Of a stretch of 64,000 nucleotides of DNA, positions 37,160 through 41,011 are shown one piece after another. Position 1 is the first letter of the stretch, and each line of letters begins with the position of its first letter. The notes below the pieces were generated by a model that did no database searches, was not told the DNA's origin, and saw only the letters and a list, made by a program, of their open reading frames with translations. Source of the DNA: Roseivirga sp. E12 (GTDB lineage: Bacteria > Bacteroidota > Bacteroidia > Cytophagales > Cyclobacteriaceae); NCBI RefSeq assembly GCF_017592825.1, contig NZ_JAGFMD010000005.1, positions 1 to 64,000 of the forward strand. Reading direction: 5' to 3'. Made by a program: the position numbers and the translations under genes.

Positions 37160-38425
37160 ATGTCCTCAGAAAGAAAGCATCTACTTAAAGCATTTGGTCC
37201 CGGAATTTTATTTGCCAGCACCTGCATTGGAGTATCACACCTTGTTCAGTCAACAAGAGCTGGTGCCGACTTTGGCTATGGCCTTGTCCTCTTTATTGTG
37301 GCTGCCCTGGTCTTCAAGTATCCATTCTTTGAATTTGGATCACGCTACGCTGCAGCGACTAAAAAGAGTCTGCTTGAAGGCTATCTGAAAGAAGGAAAAT
37401 GGGTGCTCTGGATCTATTTTATCCTTAGCCTAGGATCCATGTTCACAGTGACTGCTGCCGTCACTTTTGTAACCGCAGGAATGCTCAATAATCTAACGGG
37501 GCTCACTTTAGACCCAGCGCTAGTTTCTGGAGGCATTCTTCTCTTTTGTGTATTGATATTGGCAGTCGGTAAATACAGCCTCCTAGATTCTCTATTGAAA
37601 ATAGTAGGCACTGTGCTTCTGGTATCTACATTAGTCGCCTTTGTTGCCGCGGTCGTTAAAGGACGCGCTACGCCTATTGAAGGGTTTATTCCAAAAGAGC
37701 TTACTGAAAGAAACAGCATCATTTTCGTAATCGCACTAATGGGCTGGATGCCTACGGCAGTAGACCTGTCTACATGGAATAGTTTGTGGGCCATTGAGCG
37801 GATGAAGCAGACAGGTTACAGACCGAAACTCAAAGAGGTACTTTTCGATTTTAAATTTGGCTATTGGGTCACGGCACTTTTAGCTATTTGCTTTCTTACA
37901 CTGGGTGCCAATGTCATGTATGGCTCTGGTGTTGAGCTCTCAGGAAACTCAACAGTATTCGCAGATCAAGTCGTCACGCTTTTCACTGACGCACTTGGCG
38001 GTTGGTCTTATCTTATTATTGCCACGGCAGCTTTCAGTACAATGTTCAGCACAACCATTACTGTAGTAGATGGATTTGGTAGAGCAATGGGGGAAACGGT
38101 AAGATTGCTATTTTTTAAAGATGCTGGTGTTAGAACCACTTATAACTGGATGATGGCAACAGTTGCTCTTATATCATTCTTCTTTATTCTTTTGCTTTCA
38201 TCCAACCTCAAAGACTTAGTCGATCTTGCCACCACATTGTCATTCGTGATTGCTCCAGTCATCGCATTCATCAATTATAAGGTGATTATGTCGGACCAAA
38301 TTGAAGCAGAATTTAAGCCCAAACCTTGGCTTAAAACCCTAGCTATTATTGGTCTGATCTTCCTTACCGTGTTCGCCCTAATCTACATGGCTGTTTACTT
38401 CAATTTGATTGATTTAAATTTTTAG
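37160..38425 (+). CDS. Nramp-family transporter with non-canonical TM1
   Basis: 421 residues, about eleven TM helices. The family opening FGPGILFASTCIGVSHLVQS is present, but the canonical metal-binding TM1 motif DPGN is replaced by a STCIGVS-type sequence. TM6 keeps MGWMPTAVDLST, with the MP pair but not the usual histidine. It is therefore an Nramp-related transporter whose substrate may not be the usual Mn2+ or Fe2+. The start at 37160 gives the usual cytoplasmic N-terminus (MSSERKHLLKA). No neighbour hints at the ion. Confidence 0.78.
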   Translation: MSSERKHLLKAFGPGILFASTCIGVSHLVQSTRAGADFGYGLVLFIVAALVFKYPFFEFGSRYAAATKKSLLEGYLKEGKWVLWIYFILSLGSMFTVTAAVTFVTAGMLNNLTGLTLDPALVSGGILLFCVLILAVGKYSLLDSLLKIVGTVLLVSTLVAFVAAVVKGRATPIEGFIPKELTERNSIIFVIALMGWMPTAVDLSTWNSLWAIERMKQTGYRPKLKEVLFDFKFGYWVTALLAICFLTLGANVMYGSGVELSGNSTVFADQVVTLFTDALGGWSYLIIATAAFSTMFSTTITVVDGFGRAMGETVRLLFFKDAGVRTTYNWMMATVALISFFFILLLSSNLKDLVDLATTLSFVIAPVIAFINYKVIMSDQIEAEFKPKPWLKTLAIIGLIFLTVFALIYMAVYFNLIDLNF

Positions 38426-38505
38426 CGAAAATCTTAAAAAGGGTTTGGTTTATTTTCAACCAACCGCTAATATTGCACTCCGATTCGCAAATGAGTGGAT
38501 CAAAT

Positions 38506-38579
38506 TCCTCCTTAGCTCAGTTGGTTAGAGCATCTGACTGTTAATCAGAGGGTCCTTGGTTCGAGTCCAAGAGGAGGAG
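38506..38579 (+). tRNA. tRNA-Asn (anticodon GTT)
   Basis: The acceptor TCCTCCT pairs with AGGAGGA. The anticodon arm CTGACTGTTAATCAG carries GTT, and the T-arm is CTTGGTTCGAGTCCAAG. CCA is not encoded. Its last bases and the following AGCAAAAG are duplicated 353 bases downstream, past the GIY-YIG gene. Confidence 0.97.
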
Positions 38580-38585
38580 CAAAAG
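38572..38585 (+). repeat. Left copy of tRNA 3'-end direct repeat
   Basis: AGGAGGAGCAAAAG. It comprises the last arm of tRNA-Asn and a few bases beyond. The identical 14-mer is at 38925-38938, on the other side of the GIY-YIG gene. Confidence 0.8.
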
Positions 38586-38611
38586 GCTGGCAATCATGTC
38601 AGCCTTTTTTT
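38581..38611 (+). terminator. Terminator of tRNA-Asn
   Basis: AAAAGGCTG pairs with CAGCCTTTT with a 10-base loop, followed by T. The GIY-YIG ATG begins at the next base. Confidence 0.85.
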
Positions 38612-38902
38612 ATGCCCCAATACTCCGTTTACATTTTATTCTCTCCGAGCATCAATAGATTTTACATTGGCTACACCTCAGATTTCGAAGGCAGGTTTAG
38701 GTTCCATAATGACCTTCTAAGAAATCATATTTGGACAAAACGCGGACAACCATGGGAAAGACATCTTCTAACCGAAGAGTTATCTAAGTCACAGGCTCTT
38801 CGAATAGAGAGACATATCAAAGGAATGAAATCCAGAAAGTACATTCAGAAACTTGCTCAGAGTAAAACATCTATCATTCAACTAAAGAGAAAGTTTGCCT
38901 AG
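38612..38902 (+). CDS. GIY-YIG nuclease-family protein (96 aa)
   Basis: 96 residues, a single GIY-YIG domain of the UPF0213 type: YSVYILFSPSINRFYIGYTSD carries the two short strands (VYI and YIG), then Arg in GRFRFHN and a Glu further on (ERHLLTEE). It could be a stand-alone endonuclease. The ATG follows the tRNA terminator T-run directly, with no room for its own promoter or ribosome-binding site. The gene is bracketed by a 14-bp duplication of the tRNA-Asn 3' end, which suggests that it arrived as a tiny mobile unit. Confidence 0.85.
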   Translation: MPQYSVYILFSPSINRFYIGYTSDFEGRFRFHNDLLRNHIWTKRGQPWERHLLTEELSKSQALRIERHIKGMKSRKYIQKLAQSKTSIIQLKRKFA

Positions 38903-38924
38903 CATCTGATCCCGAGAATCGGGA

Positions 38925-38938
38925 AGGAGGAGCAAAAG
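38925..38938 (+). repeat. Right copy of tRNA 3'-end direct repeat
   Basis: AGGAGGAGCAAAAG, identical to 38572-38585. If an element inserted at the tRNA, this would be the displaced original 3' end. Confidence 0.75.
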
Positions 38939-38962
38939 CCATCCCGACATGTCGGGATGGCT
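38937..38962 (+). terminator. Terminator beyond the GIY-YIG unit, CCCGAC-type
   Basis: AGCCATCCCGAC and GTCGGGATGGCT pair around AT, followed by a short T-run. It may be the original terminator of tRNA-Asn. A smaller hairpin (CCCGAGAATCGGG) precedes it at 38911-38923. Confidence 0.8.
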
Positions 38963-39031
38963 ATTTTTGTTTGATCTACTTAACTGTGTCTTCTAAAACA
39001 GAGCAAAAACAATTAAGCTAAAGATGGTTTC

Positions 39032-41011
39032 TTAGTTTTCACTAACCACAATTTTCCTGATGATAGAGTTGTTCAAATCAGTTATGAATAGCTCTCCATT
39101 CAATCCAATTGCAATGCCTTCAGGTGTTCCAAACCTTGCTGCCGCTCCTACACCATCAGTGGTGCCAAAAGTCCCATCTCCCGCTATGGTACTTACTCTA
39201 CCATTGGTATCCACCCTACGAATACTATGGTTGTTTTGGTCCACTACATATACAACTCCATTAGCGTCTACCTCAACCCCCGTTGGAACCCTGAACCTTG
39301 CCTGATCACCAGGGCCATCAACGAAGCCTAAAACACCACTGCCTGCAAGGGTAGTTACATTACCACTTGGGTCTATTTTCCGAATGCTGTTGTTGCCCGT
39401 GTCTGCCACGTACAGATTGTCGTTGGCATCAATTGCAAGCCCCCTCGGGTTATCGAAACGCGCAGTGTTACCAGGACCATCCAAAAATCCACCTTGATTT
39501 ATACCTCCCGATCCAGTACCAGCAAAAGTGCTCACCTGTCCTGTACTCAAGTCGATTTTTCTTATTCGGTGATTGTTGGAATCTGTAATAAATAAGTTGC
39601 CCTGACTATCAATGACCACATCCCAAGGGACACTAAATTGCGCCACTGATACATCTCCATTTTCTAGGCCTGGTGTGCTTCCAGCAACAGTCGTCACGTT
39701 ATCACCCGGGCCAAGTTTTCGAATTCTACTATTTCTCATATCAACTACATAGACTATGCTGAAGTCATCGTTAGAGACCACACCTGTAGGTAAATCAAAA
39801 CGGGCATTGGCAAAAGTGCCATCTGTTTCACCTGAAACACCATTTCCTGCATATGTAGTTACGTTCAAATTTTGATCAATATGACGGATGACAAAATTTT
39901 GTCTATCAGCAACCAATATTTCTCCGGTGACAGTTACCTCGATACCAGTCATGACAGCAAAAGCGGAATTGAGACCTGGTCCATTGTCAAAACCGAAACC
40001 TCCGTTACCAGCAATGGTAGTAACAGTACCAATATATTCCGTTTCATCTACATCGGTTACGTTGATGGTAATGGTAGCCGTAGTGCTTAATTGTCCATCG
40101 GTAACTTCTACAGTGATGGTGTGACTCATGGCTGTTTCAAAGTCCAAGTTTTCGCCTTGCGCCAAACTCAACTCTCCATCAGCGGTGATTTCAAAAAGAT
40201 CACCAGAATTGGTATTAATACTGAAGCTAAGATCGTCTCCTTCCGCATCGGTGGCCATTACAGTTCCAATAACAACATCATCTGCAATGTCCTCCATCAC
40301 GGTAAATTCCTGACTATCCATGGATGGTGCAGTATTTTCATTGACATCAGTTACGTTGATGGTAATCTCAGCAGAAGCAGTCAAAGCTCCATCAGATACC
40401 TCTACAGTAATAGTGTGAACAGTAGTTGTTTCAAAATCCAGAGTTTCTCCAGCCGATAGGCTCAACTCTCCTGTCGTAGTAATTTCAAACAGACCATTGT
40501 CATTAGCAGTAATACTAAAACTCAAATTATCCCCCTCTGCATCTGTGGCCATAACAGTGCCAATGGCAGTAGCATCATCTATATCTTCAGCCACAGTAAA
40601 TGATTGAGCGCTAATAGTCGGCATAGTATTCTCATCCACATCTATAACATTGATAGTAATTGTAGCGGTAACTTGAGACGTACCATCACTAACCTGAACT
40701 GTAATGGTATGGCTTTGAGATGATTCGAAATCCAGATTTTGACCTGTCGCCAAGGATAATTGACCACTTGACGTAATTGCGAAGAGCCCATTGTCATTGA
40801 CTGTAATTTCAAAAGTCAAAGCATCACCTTCAGCATCAGTGGCACTTACAGAGCCAAAAACATCACCTGCAACCGAAGCTTCGGAAGCTGAAAATTCTTG
40901 TGCATTAATGGTAGGAGGTAGATTTTCGGCAGGATTCTCCGGAGTACAATTCCAAAGAAAAATGATACTAAGGCACAACAAAAAGATACTGGCTTTGAAA
41001 CGATAAGACAT
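39032..41011 (-). CDS. Cadherin-repeat plus NHL-propeller lipoprotein
   Basis: 659 residues. Lipobox Cys at about residue 22 (FLWNCTP). Three cadherin-like repeats of about 100 residues follow (about 33-330), each with DAEGDxLxFxIT, LDFE and TITINVxDVxE, then an NHL-type beta-propeller (about 330-659) with repeats such as GVEVDANGVVYVVDQNNHSIRRV in part. A surface adhesion or sugar/protein-binding protein is likely. It lies on the same strand just after the response-regulator gene, and a matched palindrome lies upstream of each of the two, so it is the likely output gene. Confidence 0.82.
   Translation of the reverse strand: MSYRFKASIFLLCLSIIFLWNCTPENPAENLPPTINAQEFSASEASVAGDVFGSVSATDAEGDALTFEITVNDNGLFAITSSGQLSLATGQNLDFESSQSHTITVQVSDGTSQVTATITINVIDVDENTMPTISAQSFTVAEDIDDATAIGTVMATDAEGDNLSFSITANDNGLFEITTTGELSLSAGETLDFETTTVHTITVEVSDGALTASAEITINVTDVNENTAPSMDSQEFTVMEDIADDVVIGTVMATDAEGDDLSFSINTNSGDLFEITADGELSLAQGENLDFETAMSHTITVEVTDGQLSTTATITINVTDVDETEYIGTVTTIAGNGGFGFDNGPGLNSAFAVMTGIEVTVTGEILVADRQNFVIRHIDQNLNVTTYAGNGVSGETDGTFANARFDLPTGVVSNDDFSIVYVVDMRNSRIRKLGPGDNVTTVAGSTPGLENGDVSVAQFSVPWDVVIDSQGNLFITDSNNHRIRKIDLSTGQVSTFAGTGSGGINQGGFLDGPGNTARFDNPRGLAIDANDNLYVADTGNNSIRKIDPSGNVTTLAGSGVLGFVDGPGDQARFRVPTGVEVDANGVVYVVDQNNHSIRRVDTNGRVSTIAGDGTFGTTDGVGAAARFGTPEGIAIGLNGELFITDLNNSIIRKIVVSEN

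Follow-up and report, generated by a model that had tools for sequence, protein, structure and literature searches.

The window, a stretch of 64,000 nucleotides from Roseivirga sp. E12 (contig NZ_JAGFMD010000005.1, positions 1 to 64,000), carries a transfer RNA (tRNA) gene for asparagine followed, directly behind its terminator, by a small gene for a GIY-YIG nuclease and then by a broken second copy of the same tRNA gene, in which a palindrome replaces the middle part. The same layout occurs at many other tRNA genes, and the arrangement in the window is therefore beyond chance; this recurrence rules out a chance origin of the 14-bp repeat that brackets the nuclease gene. That a tRNA-linked nuclease family with this anatomy is real is close to certain. 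We favour, at slightly better than even chances, the reading that the unit in the window belongs to a phylum-wide family of tRNA-tethered nuclease genes, which we infer to be selfish and homing-like.

Layout of the unit behind tRNA-Asn

The unit consists of the following features (evidence in brackets):

38506-38580, + strand: intact tRNA-Asn, the host gene, anticodon gtt (ARAGORN; Rfam RF00005, 71.3 bits)
38581-38611, + strand: first terminator, a hairpin with a T-run, with the ATG of the nuclease gene directly after it (inverted repeat, RNA fold, sequence)
38612-38902, + strand: GIY-YIG nuclease gene, 96 amino acids, SLX1/UPF0213-like (open reading frame, Pfam PF01541, profile A1, AlphaFold model)
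38900-38933, + strand: broken partial tRNA-Asn copy, positions 24-32 and 67-75 with the middle replaced (sequence; fuller copies in relatives, L045 and L046)
38910-38924, + strand: palindrome TCCCGAGAATCGGGA, replacing the part from the anticodon loop to the T arm (pattern searches, fold)
38925-38938, + strand: second copy of the 14-bp repeat AGGAGGAGCAAAAG (exact repeat)
38934-38970, + strand: second terminator, whose stem holds the palindrome TCCCGACATGTCGGGA at 38942-38957 (inverted repeat, fold, terminator scan)

The original prediction had described an exact 14-bp repeat of the end of tRNA-Asn, and AGGAGGAGCAAAAG is indeed present at 38572-38585 and again at 38925-38938, with a start-to-start distance of 353 bp. 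The 96-residue GIY-YIG open reading frame (ORF) likewise stands behind the first terminator as described, starting where the first T-run ends in the window sequence, and a hairpin follows each copy of the repeat (inverted repeats within 38581-38608 and within 38934-38965); a simple terminator scan did not have the first terminator (38581-38611) among its matches. The single ORF between the 14-bp repeats is the GIY-YIG gene, with GIY-YIG as its sole Pfam domain. Thus, the unit is tRNA-linked and nuclease-only, without an integrase, as had been proposed, and an integrase island is ruled out for it. An Rfam scan of 38000-39500 gave no intron family; the nuclease gene is a stand-alone ORF, and an intron-borne nuclease is ruled out by the same scan.

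The further claim, that the repeat is a short attachment-site-like duplication left by one site-specific insertion, is not supported: what recurs is the eroded end of an incomplete tRNA copy. Its second copy ends a larger tRNA-Asn remnant and is more than a short repeat. The remnant, whose first bases overlap the stop codon of the nuclease ORF, starts with TAGCATCTGA (38900-38909), the last nine bases of which (from 38901) are tRNA-Asn positions 24-32; after the perfect palindrome TCCCGAGAATCGGGA follows AGGAGGAGC (38925-38933), tRNA-Asn positions 67-75. At other loci this incomplete copy extends as far as the D arm and can even include the last codons of the ORF. The palindrome TCCCGACATGTCGGGA in the second terminator is related to TCCCGAGAATCGGGA. 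In a scan of 38000-39500 with the Rfam tRNA model, the intact tRNA-Asn was the only match and the remnant had none. In the relatives G004 and G007, the gene is followed by anticodon-arm and T-arm palindromes, the acceptor end and a terminator copy of the tRNA.

Palindromes of the form CCCGAN{1,8}TCGGG number four in the window, where shuffled sequence would give 0.15. The genome to which the window belongs contains 12 GIY-YIG matches, five of them at four tRNA loci (Asn, which is the window locus; Asp; Ala; and two between Val and Pro), and inspection by eye showed, at all four loci, a partial tRNA copy one arm of which holds a palindrome. The pattern TCCCGAN{1,10}TCGGGA has 23 perfect sites in this genome (4.7 Mb), compared with eight for the reversed control pattern; 23 sites of this type are too few for the palindromes to be a very abundant repeat. 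Nine of the 23 lie at most 400 bp from one of the 37 tRNA genes above the cut-off (distances taken by hand), and many others lie inside repeats resembling repetitive extragenic palindromes (REPs) or inside terminator-like hairpins (by eye). Similar palindromes are found close behind tRNA-Gln (L069/L070) and a tRNA-Cys, Ile and Asn cluster (L071) of the same genome; these tRNA genes have no GIY-YIG gene among the 12 matches, and the palindromes are possible relics.

Linkage to tRNA genes and partial tRNA copies

Profile A1, built from nine tRNA-linked GIY-YIG proteins, gave 78 matches in 17 of the 19 genomes of the genus (own genome included). Re-scoring gave 55 distinct homologues with a score of at least 45: 54 belong to the genus, and L032 comes from a different family within the order. 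An intact tRNA gene on the same strand, at most 330 bp upstream or at most 40 bp downstream of the gene, accompanies 34 of these 55, and none has one on the opposite strand. By a calculation made by hand, chance proximity to a tRNA gene (37 tRNA genes times 370 bp) amounts to about 0.15% of the strand-bases of the own genome. The other 21 comprise ten further copies in arrays or clusters that begin at a tRNA gene (among them L109, which is separated from the next copy by 6 kb and lacks a clear tRNA remnant beside it), six genes 180-605 bp behind a transfer-messenger RNA (tmRNA) gene, two that run into the start of tRNA-Ala, two with tRNA remnants and one at a contig edge with a tRNA-Val tail. 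Among the 27 GIY-YIG matches of the genus that score below 45, one has a tRNA neighbour as defined above, two further genes (L129 and L131) lie behind tmRNA, and two are gene fragments at tRNA loci. Eight genus genomes have a related GIY-YIG gene on the 3' side of tmRNA, in the same orientation (L121, L123, L094, L124, L127, L128, L129 and L131).

Across Bacteroidota genomes at least 90% complete, 132 of 296 contain a profile match at an E-value of 1e-12. The phylum loci are 69 places from 68 of these 132 genomes, one high-scoring place each (two in G321) among the matches listed; weaker matches and the other 64 matching genomes are outside this set. A tRNA gene in the defined position was found at 56 of the 69 loci and on the opposite strand at none; a same-strand tRNA gene lies within 1.3 kb at 62. 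The other seven either end at a contig edge (three) or are without an intact tRNA (L220, L235, L275 and L283). A scan of 84,980 species added 41 named loci, six of which come from genomes already used (the same genomes as G004, G007, G009 and G016) and were dropped before later analyses. The defined tRNA neighbour is present at 21 of the remaining 35. Of the other 14, 13 either have a remnant resembling a tRNA that scores higher than any control or lie at a contig edge; L162 does neither. At L158 and L165, tRNA genes also lie nearby on the other strand. Thirteen tRNA types are represented over 111 loci, most commonly Asn, Asp, Gly and Val, and the median distance from tRNA to nuclease domain is 51 bp (106 loci).

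Gene and tRNA share one strand. The gene follows the terminator closely (3' type, the form in the window) or stops 2-5 bp short of the tRNA (5' type). The last 11 nucleotides of the neighbouring tRNA (at most one mismatch) recur after the gene at 70 of 99 3'-type loci, compared with 18 of 8486 in a control with other tRNA types; a search for such tails beside the same nuclease type at other tRNA genes was the check suggested with the original prediction. This tail test leaves out scores below 45 and loci where under 120 bp follow the gene; L285, which belongs to the same array as L226, was left out of both the tail test and the tree set described below, yet both are within the count of 69. Among the tail-bearing loci, 56 of 70 have a palindrome that is absent from the tRNA (stem of at least 6), against 9.4% of shuffled stretches. 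Of the 70 palindromes found, 32 fell in the T arm, 26 in the anticodon arm, one in the variable region and one in the acceptor, and 10 were left unmapped. For the terminator, 45 of 65 loci show a duplicate that exceeds the 99% control.

At 40 of the 99 loci, sequence from the 5' half of the tRNA can also be recognized where the gene ends (lower-scoring GIY-YIG genes, taken at their ends, served as control). The spare copy is therefore likely to have been almost whole at one time. In 32 of those 40, the 5' half begins inside the ORF, and the last codons and the stop of the gene are there written in tRNA D-arm sequence. At the seven 5'-type loci (Pro, Ser and Leu), the first 12 nucleotides of the tRNA (at most two mismatches) precede the gene in six. 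An earlier Smith-Waterman test placed 23 of 48 loci above the 95% control and 11 above the 99% control, but its null was contaminated with real tRNAs, and the tail test took its place. A covariation count of the palindrome stems would be circular because the stems were found by complementarity.

Upstream of tRNA-Asn in G009 (L022), three palindrome-bearing tRNA-Asn copies stand in a row with 94-bp spacing before the intact gene. ARAGORN calls the palindrome-bearing tRNA-Asn copy in L151 a tRNA-Gly; annotation is affected by such miscalls, and several loci lie at contig ends.

The nuclease and its distribution

In the catalytic GIY-YIG domain, R28, H32, E66 and K70 are invariant among 74 sequences and Y7, Y18 and G20 nearly so. 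The window protein scores 44 bits against the Pfam GIY-YIG domain (PF01541, cut-off 22.6), and its AlphaFold model has a predicted local distance difference test (pLDDT) score of 95. A Foldseek search of this model against the PDB returned SLX1 chains and UPF0213 at ranks 1-12, with a best E-value of 7e-4 (the one value below 0.001) and a template modelling (TM) score of about 0.6, while UvrC and I-TevI gave weaker fold matches, far weaker for I-TevI. In agreement with the fold search, profile A1 matches 1zg2, 1ywl and SLX1 at E-values of 1e-12 to 4e-4. The minimal GIY-YIG domain is thus closest to 1zg2, 1ywl and SLX1, as in UPF0213/SLX1-like proteins. The accessible part of PMC1564403 treats the prokaryotic SLX1-like proteins as a family inherited mostly vertically, for which a role in DNA repair is predicted, and places selfish GIY-YIG enzymes in a UvrC-related lineage, typically with C-terminal DNA-binding modules; for the SLX1-like family, that part mentions a fusion to a TrmH-like tRNA methylase and makes no mention of linkage to tRNA genes. 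The window branch has the same minimal domain but differs from the largely vertical family of that source (PMC1564403, same part) in being tRNA-tethered, arrayed and patchy. Two features of free-standing homing endonucleases are present in the window, namely a GIY-YIG domain with its conserved residues and a position outside any intron or intein. The feature of the UvrC-related homing lineage is absent from the window protein, which has 96 residues and one Pfam domain. We do not count the family among the homing endonucleases, since this feature is absent and cleavage is a prediction.

In the protein tree, lineages group according to the identity of the tRNA. The tree comprises 150 proteins and leaves out scores below 45 and proteins shorter than 60 amino acids; on its 109 labelled rows, the neighbouring RNA type changes 35 times, compared with a mean of 79 and a minimum of 72 in 200 shuffles. 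On the 57 rows of the phylum sample, RNA type changes 22 times (shuffled 38) and host family 29 times (shuffled 37). Four tmRNA-linked genes form one clade.

Several loci are arrays: five 315-bp units follow one tRNA-Asp in L285, seven copies are present in L283, four follow tRNA-Val in L113, and three lie at the tRNA-Val locus of G002. In locus L233, two nuclease gene copies stand next to nine tRNA genes that pass the Rfam cut-off; six of these tRNA genes are 101 bp apart, and ARAGORN calls them Asp or Gly.

Presence varies, which fits the original prediction: at the tRNA-Asn locus the nuclease gene was found by tblastn in five of the 19 genus genomes (own genome included). A clean gene-free site in relatives was another check suggested with that prediction. 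G003, G011, G012, G014 and G018 have the same upstream gene and one tRNA, with no nuclease gene and no second tail; at least one gene-free site, that of G006, looks like a deletion scar. There, a single tRNA and terminator are followed by ATGAATACATTC, the first 12 bases of the gene in G004, and ATGAATACATTC is also present after the second terminator of G004. In G001, whose upstream gene is 96% identical to that of the window, the nuclease gene is missing and a 5' partial tRNA copy with a palindrome is present. An in-frame stop occurs in eight of the 78 genus matches. Fragments of 46-50 bp from the 3' end of tRNA-Asn, away from the main tRNA-Asn match and resembling the ends of integrase islands, were found in five relatives (G001:C1:4076817, G002:C5:776786, G005:C38:13710, G012:C45:5919 and G017:C64:365).

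Proposed mechanism and competing explanations

As proposed here, each unit would pair an SLX1-like GIY-YIG nuclease gene, itself free-standing, with a second copy of the adjoining tRNA gene. The nuclease would cut the cognate gene-free tRNA locus, and repair from the unit-bearing copy would have two homology arms, the intact tRNA on one side and the partial copy with the downstream DNA on the other; the gene would be copied in and one working tRNA kept, in a homing-like gene conversion. Read-through of the tRNA terminator would express the nuclease gene, exchange between the repeated tails would create and remove array units, and the palindromes may disarm the left-over tRNA copy as cleavage target, recombination partner and RNA. 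Evidence in favour comprises the same-strand linkage to tRNA genes (56 of 69 phylum loci, one of 27 lower-scoring genus matches), the cognate tails with their palindromes and duplicated terminators, the arrays, the tree, the patchy presence at tRNA-Asn and the SLX1-like fold. The nuclease protein is also under purifying selection, with the nonsynonymous proportion (pN) below the synonymous one (pS) in 16 of 16 chosen pairs. Found at 13 tRNA types, and with 132 of 296 sampled genomes matching its profile, the family would represent a widely overlooked way of living on tRNA genes without an integrase. It would form a selfish branch within a nuclease family described as largely vertical, and its loci would be a natural, replicated record of spare tRNA copies being disarmed by hairpins.

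Several points weigh against selfish, homing-like behaviour. Cleavage, homing and recent transfer are not among the observations, which are of sequence, and the proposal gives no account of how the intact tRNA beside the gene would escape cutting or of where the palindromes come from. The sole close pair of filled and unfilled sites that was aligned, G004 and G006, looks like loss rather than gain, although G006 may instead represent the ancestral site. No cognate tail was detected at 29 of the 99 3'-type loci (the window, whose tail is too short for the test, is one of these), and of the 70 tail-bearing loci 14 are without a palindrome. The tree was built from 82 columns, 59 of its 145 inner branches are open, and near-copies inflate the clustering. 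The pairs behind the comparison of pN with pS are not independent and in part saturated. Finally, the window protein had no match in phages and one weak match in plasmids (31.5%), and an A2 scan of viral contigs confirmed no relative; a phage or plasmid vector was dropped on these grounds.

Classic landing sites of mobile DNA, tRNA genes are normally entered via integrases. An integrase island takes a tRNA gene as its address, repeats part of it on the far side and keeps one working copy. The window unit resembles such islands in all three respects but differs in having no integrase, in its size of about 0.35 kb and in the palindromes within the repeated tRNA part. We know of no counterpart for a palindrome-replaced tRNA copy. 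A literature search by title and start of abstract, outside subscription journals and preprints, yielded no description of a Bacteroidota tRNA-linked GIY-YIG family among the matches listed.

The nearest known case is SegB of T-even phages, which, according to the accessible part of PMC13096335, lies near tRNA genes of many isotypes and drives tandem amplification of a tRNA-segB unit. Both systems combine a free-standing GIY-YIG gene beside tRNA genes with tandem tRNA-plus-nuclease units. SegB differs in being phage-borne, and that part of the source mentions no palindrome-bearing partial tRNA copy (PMC13096335); the window family is chromosomal, has an SLX1-like minimal domain, is without a phage match for the window protein and has a predicted cleavage activity.

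A bolder form of the selfish reading can be put forward tentatively. It would make the family a new class of selfish element across the phylum, in which an SLX1-type structure-reading nuclease uses the hairpin arms of tRNA and tmRNA as its address, always leaves a working tRNA and itself causes the palindromes in the spare copy; the palindrome would be a product or an immunity mark and would also spread as tiny hairpin elements.

The nuclease could, as a rather unlikely alternative, be a mobiliser of the palindromes. The hairpins would then depend on it as very small non-autonomous elements, in the way that REPs depend on Y1 transposases, and would land at tRNA loci, which have hairpins by nature. 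The excess of TCCCGA-type sites over the control (23 against eight), with nine near tRNA genes and many others in REP-like or terminator-like settings, is consistent with this. So is the recurrence of similar palindromes at loci from other families, orders and classes. SLX1 is described by name as a structure-specific nuclease, and such cleavage would be a prediction for the window protein. REP palindromes accompany Y1 transposases of the REP-associated tyrosine transposase (RAYT) type, and on this general comparison both systems pair a small nuclease gene with palindromic repeats around it. However, the window unit has GIY-YIG instead of Y1 (HUH) chemistry, its single ORF encoding no Y1-type transposase, and its palindromes lie inside broken tRNA copies, not at gene ends; a pair of sites with and without a palindrome did not turn up, though no search was aimed at one.

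Less probable still is a tRNA dosage device serving the host or a mutualist, in which the nuclease would promote amplification or gene conversion of its tRNA gene, for example under tRNA-cutting toxins. Tandem arrays, the nine tRNA genes beside two nuclease copies in L233, and the amplification of a tRNA-Tyr segment by phage SegB (accessible part of PMC13096335) speak for such a device. Yet the array unit in L285, L283, L113 and L114 is the gene with a broken tRNA, not an intact one; the extra tRNA copies bear palindromes in 56 of 70 loci; and patchy presence and the in-frame stops in eight of 78 genus matches also argue against a dosage role.

That the genes are passive passengers, kept as small genes behind a strong tRNA promoter, with tRNA copies stemming from tandem duplication or departed integrase islands, is improbable: tandem duplication would explain the repeated terminators and the tRNA-Asn fragments in five relatives resemble attachment-site ends of integrase islands, but the unit has one GIY-YIG ORF and no integrase between its repeats, the association is with one GIY-YIG branch and with 13 tRNA types and tmRNA, and the palindromes lie mainly in two arms.

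A second GIY-YIG type, away from tRNA genes, is present among the lower-scoring genes of the genus (L040, L130, L133, L135, L136, L138, L140, L142, L143, L144 and L147). REP-like end motifs (for example, GTCATTC) lie within 250 bp on both sides of 13 of the 27 matches scoring below 45, while 24 of 240 control segments have one.
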